A stretch of 19,731 nucleotides of DNA from NCBI GenBank assembly GCA_016872875.1, contig VGYW01000112.1, positions 1 to 19,731 of the forward strand, given 5' to 3'. Position numbers and translations under genes: made by a program. Shown in pieces: positions 10,484 to 18,762 of this stretch (the stretch's first letter is position 1; the number at the start of each line of letters is the position of its first letter). The stretch is from Planctomycetota bacterium. Its GTDB lineage: Bacteria; Planctomycetota; PUPC01; DSUN01. The notes beneath the pieces are model-generated. The model was given only the letters and a program-made list of their open reading frames with translations. It was not told the DNA's origin and did no database searches.

Positions 10484-11857
10484 TCAGCGGTGGCGGAACT
10501 TGATCTCCCCGCCCACGATGGCGGCCGCGGCGCGGCCGCGGACCGGCCAGCCGTGGAAGGGGCAGTTGCGGGCCTTGCTGCGGAACTTCGCCGCATCAAT
10601 GGTCCACTCGGCCGCGGGGTCAATCAGCGTGATGTCGGCCGGGCGGCCGACCGCCAGGGTGCCCGCCTCGAGGCCCAGCACGCGGGCGGGATTGCACGTC
10701 AGAGCGGCAATGGCGCGTGGCCAGGCGAGGAGGCCAGGATCGATGAGCTTGGTCACCAGAAGGGGGAGAGTGGTCTCAAGGCCGATGATGCCGAAGGGGG
10801 CGAGGGCGAACTCCACGTCCTTCTCCTCCGCCGTGTGGGGCGCGTGGTCGGAGACCAGGCAGTCAATCGTGCCGTCGGCCAGGGCGGCGCGCAGCGCCGC
10901 CGCGTCCTCCGCGCTACGGAGCGGCGGGTTCATCTTCAGGTTCGCGTCGTAGCCCGCAAGGGCCTCGTCGGTGAGGATGAGGTGGTGGATGGCCACGTCG
11001 GCGGTCACGGGCACCCCGCGGGCCTTCGCCTCGCGGATGAGGCGCACGGAGCCTTTCGTGCTCGCGTGGGTGATATGAAGAATTGCGGATTGCGGATTGC
11101 GGATTGCGGATTGAGATCGCAAATCCGAAATCCGAAATCCGAAATCCGAAATGGGGGGGGTGGCCTCGGCCAAAATGATGTCCCTGGCAACCATCACCTC
11201 CTCGGCTGCGGCGGGGATGCCGCCCAGGCCGAGCCTGACGGACCAGGTGCCGGCGTGCATGACGCCCTTGCCGGCGAGGTCCTTGTCCTCGCAGTGGGCG
11301 ATGATCGGCTTGCCGAGCATGGCGGCGTAGGCGAGCGCCGTGCGCATCAGGCGCGATGAGCGCACGGGGTCGCCGTCGTCGGAGAAGGCCACGGCGCCGG
11401 CCCGCGCCATCTGGCCCATCTCGGCGAGGCGTTCGCCCTTGCGGCCGAGGGAGACGGCTCCGATGGGCAGCACGCGGCAGAGGCCCGCCCGCTCGCCCTG
11501 GGCGGCCTGGAAGGCCACGGCGGCCTCGTTGTCCACCGCGGGGTCGGTGTTGGGCATCACGGCCACGGCGGTGAAGCCGCCGGCCACGGCGGCCGCGGCG
11601 CCGCTCGCTATCGTCTCCTCCGCCTCGTTGCCCGGCTCGCGGAAGTGGACGTGCATGTCGATGAGGCCGGGCGCCACGATGAGGCCGGTGGCATCAAGGG
11701 TGGCACAGGCATCTTGCCTGTGGCCCACAGGCGGGACGCCTGTGCCACCAGAGCCTATGGCGGCCACGCGCCCGTCCTCGATCAGCACGTCGGCCTTCTT
11801 GTCAATCCCCTGCGCCGGGTCAATCACCCGGCCGCCCTTGATGAGCAGCTCTGCCAC
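10484..11857 (-). CDS. pyrC: Dihydroorotase, class I, with two in-frame repeat-derived insertions
   Basis: 457 residues from the GTG at 11857 (AGGAA eight bases upstream); an ATG at 11881 would add eight residues (MQEGRKRP) that the family lacks. It catalyses reversible cyclisation of carbamoyl-aspartate to dihydroorotate in pyrimidine synthesis. All metal and substrate sites are visible: DMHVHFREPG (H69, H71), SDDGDP (D160/D161), HCED (H188), LHITHAST (H264) and SDHAPH (D337). Two segments are foreign to the family. Residues 37-53 (TGVPPVGHRQDACAT) are encoded by a palindrome. Residues about 234-259 (ISDFGFRISDLRSQSAIRNP and onward) are encoded by a heptamer repeat and sit directly before the strand carrying H264. 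Both keep frame. The gene starts 28 bases after pyrB's stop, in one operon. Probably still active, since no ligand is lost. Confidence 0.96.
   Translation of the reverse strand: MAELLIKGGRVIDPAQGIDKKADVLIEDGRVAAIGSGGTGVPPVGHRQDACATLDATGLIVAPGLIDMHVHFREPGNEAEETIASGAAAAVAGGFTAVAVMPNTDPAVDNEAAVAFQAAQGERAGLCRVLPIGAVSLGRKGERLAEMGQMARAGAVAFSDDGDPVRSSRLMRTALAYAAMLGKPIIAHCEDKDLAGKGVMHAGTWSVRLGLGGIPAAAEEVMVARDIILAEATPPISDFGFRISDLRSQSAIRNPQSAILHITHASTKGSVRLIREAKARGVPVTADVAIHHLILTDEALAGYDANLKMNPPLRSAEDAAALRAALADGTIDCLVSDHAPHTAEEKDVEFALAPFGIIGLETTLPLLVTKLIDPGLLAWPRAIAALTCNPARVLGLEAGTLAVGRPADITLIDPAAEWTIDAAKFRSKARNCPFHGWPVRGRAAAAIVGGEIKFRHR
11080..11155. repeat. Heptamer tandem-repeat palindrome inside pyrC
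   Basis: The left arm is four tandem copies of ATTGCGG from about 11082. A short spacer (ATTGAGATCGC) follows, and the right arm is four tandem copies of AAATCCG, ending in AAATGGG. CGGATT in the left arm complements AATCCG in the right, so the whole can fold as an imperfect hairpin. It is contained in the coding frame of dihydroorotase without a stop, encoding ISDFGFRISDLRSQSAIRNP and the following residues. Translated peptides of this kind (IRNPQSAI) are familiar to me from environmental genomes, which suggests a dispersed element; unverified. Confidence 0.85.
11699..11749. repeat. 51-bp palindrome (GGTGGCACAGGC...GCCTGTGCCACC) inside pyrC
   Basis: The perfect outer arms GGTGGCACAGGC and GCCTGTGCCACC enclose two inner arms GCCTGTG and CACAGGC. 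The element can therefore fold as one long cruciform or as two hairpins with loops ATCTT and GGGAC. Its length is exactly 51 bases, 17 codons, so the dihydroorotase frame is kept; on the coding strand it reads GGTGVPPVGHRQDACAT. The HRQDACAT peptide is one I recall from many translated planctomycete-like proteins, consistent with a mobile palindrome that tolerates coding regions. Confidence 0.9.
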
Positions 11858-11884
11858 GGGTCGTTTCCTGCCTTCCTGCATTCC

Positions 11885-12814
11885 TTATGGGCTCTTCCTC
11901 GTCTGCGTCACCAGGGCTAGCACGGCCATGCGCACGGCCACGCCGTTGGTCACTTGCTCCAGGATCGCCGAGTGGCCGCCGTCGGCCACGTCGGGCGCCA
12001 TCTCAACTCCGCGGTTGATCGGGCCGGGGTGCATCACGAGGAGGCCGGGCTTGGCGCGCCGCAGCCGCGCGGCGTCGAGCCCGAAGAGGCGCGAGTACTC
12101 GCGCACCGACGGGAAGGGCTGCTCCTCGAGCCGCTCGGTCTGCACGCGGAGCATGTTCACCACGTCCATCTCAGGGAGGACGGCGTCGAGGTCGTGGCTC
12201 ACCTTCGCGCCCAGCTTGGCGAATGCCTTGGGCACGAGGGTGGTCGGGCCGACGAACCAGACCTCGGCCCCGAGCTTCGTGAGGCCCCAGAGGTTGGAGC
12301 GTGCGACGCGGCTGTGGGCGACGTCGCCCACGATGGCGACCTTGAGGCCGGCGACGCGCCCGAGGCGCCTGCGGATGGTGAAGATGTCGAGCAGCCCCTG
12401 GGTGGGGTGCTCGTGCTGCCCGTCCCCGGCGTTCACGATGCTCGCGTCAATCGAGCGAGCGAGGAGGTGCGGGGCGCCCGAGCAGCCGTGCCGCACCACC
12501 ACCGCGTCTATCCCCATCGCCGCGATGTTGCGGGCCGTGTCGCGCAGCGTCTCGTCCTTCACCACGCTGGAGGTCGCCACGTCGAAGTTGATGACCGTGG
12601 CCCCCAGGCGGCGCTCGGCGAGCTCGAAGGACGTGCGGGTGCGCGTGCTCGGCTCGAAGAAGAGGTTGACCACCACCTTCCCGCGGAGGTCGTCCCGCGG
12701 CCCGTCGTTCCGCGCGACGATCTTGCGGAACTCCTCGGCCATGTCGAGGACGTGGTTGATCTCCTCCGCCGAGTAGTCTTCCAGGCCGAGCAGGTGCTTC
12801 TGCTTCCATTCCAC
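11885..12814 (-). CDS. pyrB: Aspartate carbamoyltransferase catalytic subunit
   Basis: 309 residues, the normal length. It condenses carbamoyl phosphate with aspartate, the first committed step of pyrimidine synthesis. The carbamoyl-phosphate loop FFEPSTRTRTSFELAERRLGA is at about 52-72. HGCSGAPHLLAR (family: RHxxSGAP), then NAGDGQHEHPTQGLLDIFTI and MHPGPINRGVEM complete the active site. The ATG at 12814 has only a distant AAGGGG; no alternative start is better. pyrC follows after 28 bases, so the two form a pyrB-pyrC operon. No regulatory chain (pyrI) is nearby. Upstream lies copy 1 of the GGATG palindrome, and no pyrimidine attenuator or PyrR-type leader was recognised. Confidence 0.97.
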   Translation of the reverse strand: MEWKQKHLLGLEDYSAEEINHVLDMAEEFRKIVARNDGPRDDLRGKVVVNLFFEPSTRTRTSFELAERRLGATVINFDVATSSVVKDETLRDTARNIAAMGIDAVVVRHGCSGAPHLLARSIDASIVNAGDGQHEHPTQGLLDIFTIRRRLGRVAGLKVAIVGDVAHSRVARSNLWGLTKLGAEVWFVGPTTLVPKAFAKLGAKVSHDLDAVLPEMDVVNMLRVQTERLEEQPFPSVREYSRLFGLDAARLRRAKPGLLVMHPGPINRGVEMAPDVADGGHSAILEQVTNGVAVRMAVLALVTQTRKSP

Positions 12815-12848: not shown

Positions 12849-12948
12849 GCGGCGTGTGCCGCTCCAACCAAGGGGGATGATTGGATGGGTGGATGGATGG
12901 ATGATTGTCGGACACCCATCCACCCATCCATTCATCCATTCATCCCCC
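12849..12948 (+). repeat. GGATG palindrome, copy 1, with GCGGC side hairpin
   Basis: A small hairpin GCGGC-GTGT-GCCGC (12849-12862) is followed by the main palindrome 12872-12948. The left arm is GGGGGATGATTGGATGGGTG and onward; the right arm is CCATTCATCCATTCATCCCCC-like; the centre is TTGTCGGACA. A GCGCGCGC tract follows at about 12955. Copy 3, read on the opposite strand, matches the main palindrome at about 73 of 76 bases. It lies between the helical-protein stop (12983) and the pyrB start (12814), upstream of pyrB. Confidence 0.9.
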
Positions 12949-12982
12949 GCTGAAGCGCGCGCGGACTCTCTGGCGGTCGCGG

Positions 12983-13799: not shown

Positions 13800-13896
13800 G
13801 CGGCCTTCGGCCGCAGACGAAGGGGATGATTGGATGGGTGGATGAATGGATGATTGTCTGACACCCATCCAACCATCCATTCCTCCACCCATCCCC
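13800..13896 (+). repeat. GGATG palindrome, copy 2, with GCGGCC side hairpin
   Basis: Side hairpin GCGGCC-TTC-GGCCGC (13800-13814), then main palindrome 13822-13896 (GGGGATGATTGGATGGGTGG onward, centre TTGTCTGACA, ending CACCCATCCCC), followed by GGCTGATGCGCGCGCGAGCC. It has the same orientation as copy 1. The stem of the side hairpin keeps GCGGC/GCCGC while the loop differs from copy 1 (TTC versus GTGT). It lies in the divergent region between the helical gene (start 13774) and thiE (start 13995). The remaining ~95 bases before thiE contain no TPP-riboswitch core that I can see. Confidence 0.9.
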
Positions 13897-13994
13897 GGCT
13901 GATGCGCGCGCGAGCCACAGTTGGAGAATCTACCACACTGCCAGTGCAGGATCAAGCCCTTGCGTGCCCAGCGTCCTTCTGGTACGATCAGGAT

Positions 13995-15066: not shown

Positions 15067-15150
15067 AGGGACCACAGGGACCTCAGGGACCTCAGGGACA
15101 CAGACCAATGTCCTTATGTCCCTGTGGTCCCTGTGGTCCCTGTGGTCCCT
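15067..15150. repeat. Nonamer tandem-repeat palindrome between thiE and purQ
   Basis: The left arm is AGGGACCAC followed by two AGGGACCTC units and AGGGACACAG. The right arm is ATGTCCCTGTGGTCCCTGTG and onward, ending GGTCCCT, i.e. three complementary copies of AGGGACCAC. The centre is ACCAATGTCCTT. The 84-base element can form a long hairpin and starts 23 bases after the thiE stop. The 9-base unit keeps frame, so an open frame through it encodes GPQGPQGPQG and CGPCGPCGP, a collagen-like artefact ahead of PurQ. Confidence 0.9.
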
Positions 15151-16050: not shown

Positions 16051-16170
16051 TGCGCGCTTTGCGCGCATGTTGGGGGATGAATGGATGAATGGATGGGTGG
16101 ATGGGTGTCAGACAACCATCCATTCATCCACCCATCCAATCATCCCCTTTGGTTGCGGCCATAAGCCGCA
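16051..16170 (-). repeat. GGATG palindrome, copy 3 (inverted), with two side hairpins
   Basis: From left to right: hairpin TGCGCGC-TTT-GCGCGCA (16051-16067), which starts 20 bases after the purQ stop and may act as a weak terminator without a T-tract; main palindrome 16072-16147; and side hairpin TGCGGC-CATAA-GCCGCA (16154-16170). Read on the minus strand, the order and sequence are those of copies 1 and 2, with about 73/76 identity to copy 1 in the palindrome. The side-hairpin loop (TTATG) differs from both other copies while the stem is kept. Confidence 0.9.
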
Positions 16171-16223
16171 TTGAGTACACCGCGGTGCGTGAGAGGCCAA
16201 CGCCCTGGGCGCTTCGCTGTCTT

Positions 16224-16430
16224 GCTCCCGAAGGGAGCACAGTGGGTTGCCGGCGGCTTCAGCCGCCGGACCCGGTCGCCAGAACCAGCGAAGTCCCGAA
16301 GGGACGGCAGAAGGGGGGTGGGGGCCGTTACGTCTCGGGGCTCTGCCGTCCCTTCGGGACTGGTCCCGGGGTCGGCCCCTGGTCCGGCGGCTGAAGCCGC
16401 CGGCAACCGACTACAGTCCCTTCGGGACTG
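16224..16430 (+). repeat. 205-bp six-hairpin palindromic element, copy A
   Basis: Six hairpins in mirrored order: GCTCCC-GAA-GGGAGC (16224-16238), CCGGCGGC-TTCA-GCCGCCGG type (from about 16250), GTCCC-GAA-GGGAC (about 16273), then on the right GTCCC-TTC-GGGAC (about 16348), CCGGCGGCTGAAGCCGCCGG (from about 16384), and AGTCCC-TTC-GGGACT (16415-16429). The conserved linkers are ACAGTGGGTTG beside hairpin 1, GGCAGA beside hairpin 3, and CAACCgACT on the right. The central 40 bases (16289-16340) are G-rich and differ from copy B. No ORF inside looks real. It lies between purQ and the small membrane protein. Confidence 0.9.
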
Positions 16431-17855: not shown

Positions 17856-17890
17856 AGGAGACAAGAAAACCCGCGCGCGTGCTCTGCTTA

Positions 17891-18094
17891 GTCCCGAAGG
17901 GACAGCAGTGGGTGGCCGGCGGCTTCAGCCGCCGGATCACGGCGCACCCACGGCCCAGTCCCGAAGGGACGGCAGAGCCCCGCGGCGAGGCTGTCCCGCC
18001 CCCGTTTCTGCCGTCCCTTCGGGACTTGGGTAGTTCCGGCACCCAAGTCCGGCGGCTGAAGCCGCCGGCAACCCACTGTGCTCCCTTCGGGAGC
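17891..18094 (-). repeat. 205-bp six-hairpin palindromic element, copy B (inverted)
   Basis: Read on the minus strand, it reproduces copy A: GCTCCC-GAA-GGGAGC (18080-18094), ACAGTGGGTTGCCGGCGG and onward, AGTCCCGAAGGGACGGCAGA, a variable centre, CTCTGCCGTCCCTTCGGGAC, CCGGCGGCTGAAGCCGCCGG, and a closing GTCCCTTCGGGAC (17891-17903). The hairpins and linkers are nearly identical to copy A, while the centre and the segments between hairpins 2 and 3 differ. It starts 35 bases after the URO-D-like stop. Bases 18095-18221 show no clear feature apart from a short GGGGCCGACCTCTTGGCCAG resembling 18867-18887. Confidence 0.9.
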
Positions 18095-18221
18095 GGGACG
18101 GCTAGACGCCCGCGGTTTGGTCCGCCCTGAATGTGGGACGATGCGCTGACCATGTAAGGGGCCGACCTCTTGGCCAGGCGGCACGGGAGGGTTCCGCGTG
18201 CAGGTATGCACGCCCTATCGT

Positions 18222-18443
18222 CTATGCGCTGACGACTTCGACGGAGAGGAGTTGCTTGACCTGGTGCTGGCCATCGAGCATTGCGTCAATGCGGTCGAGG
18301 GTGCGGGCGTGGAAGTAGCGCTCGCCGCACTCCTGGCAGACCTCGGCCTCGACGTTCTCGACGATGTAAAGCCTGCCCTTGTGCCAGTGCTGCTTCCTCA
18401 CCCTCCGAACGGCTGTGTCGGCAGCGCAGATCGCACACTTCAT
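18222..18443 (-). CDS. YgiT/MqsA-type zinc-finger protein, orphan antitoxin candidate
   Basis: 73 residues from the ATG at 18443 with GAGGTG seven bases upstream; the frame extends to 18512, but the added residues are not family-like. The four cysteines of the YgiT-type zinc finger are C3, C6, C36 and C39 (MKCAIC and CQECG). The linker HKGRLYIVENVEAEVCQECG and the tail RYFHARTLDRIDAMLDGQHQ are typical. Proteins of this size usually pair with a DUF4258 or MqsR-like toxin encoded just upstream, and often lack the helix-turn-helix of full MqsA, as here. No such toxin is found on either side: upstream is the repeat at 18554-18762. It is therefore either an orphan or has lost its partner. Confidence 0.85.
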   Translation of the reverse strand: MKCAICAADTAVRRVRKQHWHKGRLYIVENVEAEVCQECGERYFHARTLDRIDAMLDGQHQVKQLLSVEVVSA

Positions 18444-18553
18444 GGGAGTCACCTCTTTGCGTATGCACTTATGACCAGGACGTATTATAGCGCGTCGTGG
18501 CCGTGTTCGCATCCGCAGATGAGTACTGCCCCCAATCCTGGTGCACTGCTCCA

Positions 18554-18762
18554 GAGCCCCGATAGGGGCGTACTATAGCAGCCCAGGGCGAAGCCCTGGG
18601 AAAGGGCGATGGGTGGGTCAGCCCTGAAAGGGCGTACTATGTGGTCTGAGTGCCACCTCCTGCCCAGGGCGGCTAGTACGCCCCTACAGGGCTGAATCCG
18701 GCCGCCCGCCTCTCCCAGGGCTGCGCCCTGGGCTGCTATAGCACGCTCCCTTCGGAGCTTCA
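18554..18762 (+). repeat. 209-bp multi-hairpin palindromic element, second sequence family
   Basis: Mirrored order: GAGCCCC-GATA-GGGGC, GTACTATAGCAGCCCAGGGC closed by GAAGCCCTGGG (to 18600), AGCCCT-GAA-AGGGC with GTACTAT (about 18620-18640); then CTAGTACGCCCCTACAGGGCT (18673-18693), CCCAGGGC-TGC-GCCCTGGG and CTGCTATAGCACGCTCC (18715-18750), and a GCTCCC-TTC-GGAGC end. The plan and length equal those of copies A and B, although the sequences differ. The right end continues as TTCAGAGCCGAAGAA and matches the half copy at 8753-8795. It occupies most of the 400-base space between the zinc-finger gene and the hydrolase; the rest (18444-18553, 18777-18843) shows nothing else. Confidence 0.85.

Follow-up and report, generated by a model that had tools for sequence, protein, structure and literature searches.

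How does the gene of an essential enzyme come to carry two palindromic repeats within its reading frame, and are they additions to the protein or something else? A first-pass annotation of a 19,731-nucleotide stretch of planctomycete DNA (the window) had noticed two unrelated palindromes inside pyrC, and had proposed that such elements can spread into coding sequence as peptide-encoding inserts which the host enzyme tolerates. The gene, encoding a type I dihydroorotase (10484..11881, minus strand), comprises 465 codons with zero internal stops in the window translation. The database start lies 8 codons later, giving a protein of 457 aa (P0001) in whose numbering insert 1 spans residues 37-53 and insert 2 residues 234-259. 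Directly upstream lies pyrB, encoding aspartate carbamoyltransferase (11885..12814, minus strand; NF002032 403 bits, cut-off 263), in a pyrBC arrangement. The product displays the HxH, Asp, His, His and Asp metal ligands and the fold of a type I dihydroorotase, and the ligands had rightly been described as kept: H69, H71, D160, D161, H188, H264 and D337 are invariant in 24 of 24 aligned PyrCs. Fold and metal ligands are common to the enzymes from Aquifex (4bjh/3d6n) and Bacillus anthracis (4yiw), from which the window PyrC differs in having two additional repeat-derived loops.

Insert 1 is a REPIN, a head-to-head dimer of GTGG-tagged REPs (11699..11749, minus strand), whose 51 bp form exactly 17 codons and encode GGTGVPPVGHRQDACAT. 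It consists of two GGTGGCACAGGC-NTC-YYGCCTGTG copies facing each other across a 3-bp spacer; each unit follows the formula GTGG + CACAGGC-NTCYY-GCCTGTG, with a GTGG tag of the GTRG-head type, a 7-bp stem and a 5-nt loop. REP unit 1 (GGTGGCACAGGCGTCCCGCCTGTG; 11726..11749, minus strand) is in frame S0 and reads GGTGVPPV, and the inverted REP unit 2 (GGTGGCACAGGCATCTTGCCTGTG; 11699..11722, plus strand) lies in antisense frame A0 of pyrC and reads HRQDACAT. The palindrome is as described before, in frame and with 22 of its 25 symmetric positions complementary, and all six frames of the window copy are open. Its half-unit matches the window twice, once in each arm, as against 0 matches in 200 shuffles, and its fold has a z-score of -6.5.

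Insert 2 is unrelated to insert 1 in repeat type. It consists of two tandem heptamer arrays in inverted orientation, (GGATTGC)n / (GAAATCC)n, whose hairpin contains a single mismatch in each heptamer (11080..11155, minus strand), and likewise lies inside pyrC in frame. A 20-base heptamer probe returned 5 matches in the window and 0 in 200 shuffles, and the fold z-score is -4.9. The closest published likeness is to the tandem heptanucleotide elements of Geobacter (PMC2700814), which also comprise tandem heptamers and inverted pairs. As described in excerpts of that paper, they consist of four to five tandem heptamers, with one family located both within and between genes and another drawn as strand-switching hairpins; the unit given there (GGACCGG or MTYCTGA) differs from the GGATTGC/GGATTTC found here. 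A motif search of 119 other PyrCs, the best of 7999, did not return the insert 2 motif. Among 99 relatives searched, the heptamer was present in 6, one of them G001, the Planctomycetota metagenome-assembled genome that is the nearest named one to the window. One 1947-codon PQQ/TPR open reading frame of G001 contains three heptamer arrays and one REP, all in frame, while for none of the 18 further arrays (of 21 in the relatives) do the two flanks agree on a best frame free of stops. The proposal that both elements spread into coding sequence is thus weaker for the heptamers.

Comparison with orthologues allowed us to ask what the inserts replaced. The pyrC of G001 (L001), 77% identical to that of the window by tblastn, lacks both. 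At the insert 1 site it has 8 codons against 18 in the window (net +10), and at the insert 2 site relatives have three codons (mostly GGR, otherwise GAR or similar) in place of the 26 in the window (PPISDFGFRISDLRSQSAIRNPQSAI; 11081..11158, minus strand; net +23). The extra codons are therefore real, as first claimed, but the inserts are not pure additions. In a 24-row PyrC alignment, insert 1 recurs in decayed form in three further proteins (P0002-P0004), with position and length unchanged and the peptide differing at 4 to 7 of 17 positions when counted by eye. The remaining rows are 9-10 residues shorter there, except P0028 (5 shorter) and P0014, whose N-terminus is missing. Most close orthologues thus lack insert 1, and insert 2 is present in the window PyrC only among the PyrCs compared. 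Because close orthologues are without both inserts and unrelated genes contain the same DNA (see below), we ruled out that the two are ancestral protein loops rather than mobile DNA. A single origin of insert 1 in pyrC was neither shown nor rejected by an AU test (p 0.30), from which P0014 was dropped for its missing N-terminus and the PyrB-PyrC fusions P0027 and P0029 were excluded.

An AlphaFold model made from the 24 close sequences was poor (pLDDT 66), and was remade with 55 more diverse ones, reaching pLDDT 93. All 19 residues with pLDDT below 50 fall in 38-49 and 247-253, both within the inserts, which the model places in surface loops and predicts to be disordered. Insert 2 ends directly before the strand 260-263 leading to H264, in agreement with the earlier reading, and in the model occupies a helix-to-strand connection. 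Such connections in this barrel fold face away from the active site. A further extra stretch, PSTSLGPG, is present in one and the same loop in P0006 (and L001) and in P0014, which are not sisters in the tree, and is possibly another repeat-derived insert.

The REP of insert 1 belongs to a dispersed family. We detected 54 exact half-units in G001 and 0 in a reversed control; copies occur as singlets and as head-to-head inverted pairs with variable spacers, and the core is preceded by GGT, with G, G and T conserved in 89, 97 and 97%, respectively, of 74 unit matches. The tagged form is present in 10 of 392 planctomycete genomes, G001 included. Using a codon model trained on 155 long open reading frames, we found 26 of 52 element places in G001 to be in frame between coding flanks, the sample being the loci around all 54 exact half-units and so limited to these and their surroundings. 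One place lies between coding flanks in different frames, and 25 are elsewhere or unclear. The window copy itself is classed as ‘other’ by the model since the start of pyrC is close to insert 1. The in-frame count for nine other planctomycete genomes was 1 of 30 places examined (Fisher p 5.7e-6), a control with smaller training sets, in which the G001 codon model served for five genomes with little sequence and 10 of 14 exact matches were taken for one genome (G311).

These in-frame counts depend on the codon-usage model, and 8 of the 25 spanning open reading frames in G001 had no Pfam match. Domains flank or span the insert in another 8, namely a glycosyltransferase, a PQQ protein, a sigma-54 activator, a radical-SAM protein, an ATP-grasp/GNAT protein, a sulfatase, an AMP-ligase and carA, and 9 more have matches not clearly on both sides. 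The insertions are thus in frame in unrelated Pfam families, and for the first element the proposed spread into coding sequence is borne out. A sister family in G001, with a GTGG tag and a GCGGGGC stem, numbers 291 copies and is in frame at 11 of 15 places in the loci examined, leaving out the transposase locus L119 discussed below; its hosts include mnmG, where the element lies inside a 680-bit model match.

The explanation we favor, and hold to be probable, is that in the lineage of the window and G001 REPs spread into genes, where surface-loop swaps in harmless frames survive and decay, the heptamer hairpin being a second and unrelated arrival. Insert 1 would be a small non-autonomous mobile element of the type moved by REP-associated tyrosine transposases. 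Frame-shifting insertions and those entering the structured core would be purged, while swaps in surface loops, in frames giving peptides rich in Gly, Pro, Thr and Val, could persist as near-neutral inserts and then decay through point mutation. Insert 2 probably entered pyrC later than insert 1.

The enzyme that would move the family does not stand beside it in G001. None of 19 Y1-transposase matches in this genome has a CACAGGC-type REP nearby (up to 4 mismatches, mostly within ~1.5 kb on each side), and three of these loci have REP matches at 5 mismatches only; a cognate RAYT next to this REP was thus looked for in G001 and not found. Among the nine other genomes, where 30 loci of 76 matches were examined, two CACAGGC-type REPs lie inside a frame-broken Y1-transposase gene of G367 (L154:1334-1845, contig C18), and one locus of G247 has a weak match with up to 4 mismatches. 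REPs with one or two changed stem pairs, present in 57 copies across G322, flank a 49% match to the G367 transposase piece in that genome.

The arrangement expected of a REPtron, in which the same REP adjoins a Y1/RAYT gene, was found only for sister GTGG-REPs. At L119:1399-2352 of G001 (contig C34), which matches the REP-associated tyrosine transposase model with 97 bits (cut-off 80) and Pfam Y1 with 22 bits (below cut-off), sister REPs lie all around; four occupy its reading frame immediately ahead of the matched part, and another four lie in an N-terminal extension that is possibly not translated. PMC8266576 describes cleavage by a REP transposase as still guided by a GTGG head, with lower efficiency at the usual site. 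Taken with the sister REPs beside transposases, this makes it likely that the insert 1 family is moved by a REP-associated transposase. As no cognate RAYT adjoins the REP in G001, we propose such mobilization without claiming membership in a RAYT system.

Two other genes show the exchange seen in pyrC. In carA, a REPIN peptide lies between two domains in 5 of 20 aligned rows, and the other rows have a linker 4-5 residues shorter, mostly of the V-x-D/E-L-P type. A single clade for the five insert-bearing rows was rejected (p 5.8e-6). Since the insert-free rows, including outgroups, have a common linker type, several insertions, or recombination between species, explain the pattern better than several losses. 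Of 11 aligned rows of an acyl-CoA ligase, G001 alone has HRQDACAT, the others having five residues. The element takes the place of a resident loop, so that the net gain is smaller than the element: 10 of 17 codons in pyrC, 4-5 of 17 in carA and 3 of 8 in the ligase. By these alignments, all three genes had their resident loop exchanged and not just lengthened.

This is not what simple insertion predicts, and it counts against our favored explanation. Microhomology-driven template switching, or gene conversion from other copies, in which the stretch between two short matches is replaced, would account for the small net gains. The insert-free site of L001 carries GGTGGCA, the same 7 bases as the element head, and the recurrence of carA inserts at the same codon in five rows that do not form one clade is also consistent with it. 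However, the orthologues without inserts are rather distant, so trimming after insertion may have occurred, and REPs elsewhere are tied to RAYT genes. We regard template switching as a possible but somewhat doubtful substitute for transposition.

The reading frames are used unequally. Frames of the first unit in the 26 in-frame elements of G001 are S0 in 13, A1 in 9, A0 in 2 and A2 in 2, with S1 and S2 unused; two of the six frames thus account for 22 of 26 (chi-square p 2.9e-6 versus equal use). Frame S0 reads GGTGxxPV and A1 reads TGxxPVP, while the unused S1 and S2 encode Trp, Cys or His. The skew suggests selection acting at the peptide level. There are exceptions: the first half of the carA insert, too diverged for inclusion in the count, is in S1, and the 11 in-frame elements of the sister family are spread over S0 (5), A2 (3), A0 (2) and S2 (1). 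The skew could instead reflect a target-site preference of the mobilizing enzyme, given that C or T followed by GGT precedes the core in 46 of 74 unit matches in G001 (CGGT 27, TGGT 19). By itself that context hardly seems strong enough to set the codon phase, and the two unused frames are those which encode Trp, Cys or His, making this reading unlikely.

It is less probable still that the inserts are beneficial, acting as a flexible linker or assembly surface in PyrC and CarA, or as an mRNA hairpin that tunes expression. The constant length of insert 1 in four PyrCs and of the carA insert in five of the 20 aligned CarAs, and the strong single-strand folds, could be read this way, but the peptide has drifted in P0002-P0004, the hosts are of unrelated families and most aligned orthologues do without an insert.

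The host gene is mostly under purifying selection. Relative to L001, dN/dS is ~0.21 over 417 codons, with ~0.19 in the stretch separating the inserts and 0.14 past insert 2; the value of 0.78 over the 43 codons before insert 1 is for a stretch that includes codons upstream of the database start. Low values past insert 1, together with the confinement of low model confidence to the inserts, agree with the proposed tolerance by the enzyme. That pyrC is an assembly chimera or pseudogene, as the high value before insert 1 and the probably metagenomic source of the window might suggest, is scarcely credible given the low values downstream, a protein cluster found on 4 contigs, the lack of stops and an insert 1 common to related species.

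A more speculative reading, which we offer tentatively, is that in this planctomycete lineage REPs act as mobile loop cassettes, with repeated entry into the same loop and frame (as in carA), replacement of the resident loop, filtering for Gly/Pro-rich peptides, and in-frame placement even in transposase genes. If so, they would provide core enzymes with replacement loops in an ongoing natural process.

By definition REPs are extragenic, a mainly extragenic location being customary and not required. G001 departs from it, with half of its places in frame; the nine other genomes are compatible with it, 29 of the 30 places examined not being in frame. Nearly all REPs of SBW25 lie outside genes, the most abundant 16-mers overlapping genes at 14 of their 1,067 occurrences (PMC3116915). 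Insert 1 has in common with the REPINs and RAYT transposases described there the REP doublet and the single-strand hairpin; it differs in that no cognate RAYT is beside the family in G001 and that many copies are in frame.

The principle of genic palindromes as peptide inserts is not new: intragenic REPs, and Rickettsia palindromic elements (RPEs), palindromes translated in frame within genes as peptide inserts, are already in print, as excerpts of PMC3733652 make clear. The same excerpts attribute the most intragenic GTAG copies to Opitutus terrae, another PVC bacterium, most of whose GTAG-20 elements are GTGG-headed; we liken these to the insert 1 family by description and not by consensus sequence. 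GTAG-tagged REPs as portrayed there share with the insert 1 family the tagged stem-loop, head-to-head dimers, dispersal and occasional genic location, while the family differs in having about half of one genome's places in frame, a frame skew and loop replacement. The likeness to RPEs, likewise one of description, is in-frame insertion in unrelated genes; insert 1 is from another phylum and has a GTGG head, and RPE-1 is described in the same excerpts as longer.

Literature searches with the insert peptides or the heptamer string returned no match, and PMC3733652 was the sole fitting paper among the matches listed for planctomycete palindromes or intragenic REPs. Among those matches, we did not find in print the family in planctomycetes, a high in-frame fraction in a single lineage, the frame skew or the loop replacement, in which we see the novelty. 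With roughly half of one family's places apparently translated, peptide-level selection on mobile DNA becomes testable, as do whether mobile hairpins rebuild protein loops and why genes are entered in one planctomycete and not in others with the same repeat. For annotation, peptides such as GTGVPPVGHRQDACAT or ISDFGFRISDL signal repeats and not domains.

The window contains other repeats. Two matches to the Acido-Lenti-1 ‘sRNA’ (Rfam RF01687) are on the minus strand at 17890-17935 and 18555-18600, the first overlapping a GTGG-tagged hairpin at 17912. With 150 candidates scored in each genome, this family had 142 matches in G001, 120 in G311, 0 in G369 and 1 in G100, and it brackets a Y1-transposase match in G001 (C21:3148-3492, region C21:2894-3922); it resembles a further transposase-linked REP more than it does an RNA gene. 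A third repeat kind besides the REPIN and heptamers, a palindrome of GGATG/GGAT-type short tandem units, is present in three copies (12873-12963, 13822-13912 and 16073-16163). An inverted array of 9-base units, AGGGACCTC/AGGGACCAC, at 15067-15150 lies inside the 58-residue leader (QGPQGPQG...CGPCGPCG) of the purQ open reading frame, ahead of a GATase_5 match beginning at residue 59, and the true start of purQ is probably further down than that of the frame. Inverted repeats of 171 nt (16207-16377 and 17941-18111; 82% complementary) have REP-like hairpins and an open reading frame in between. A Doc-type toxin (TIGR01550; 1314-1703, minus strand) is distant from an MqsA-like antitoxin domain (18222-18512, minus strand; 30.1 bits, cut-off 30).
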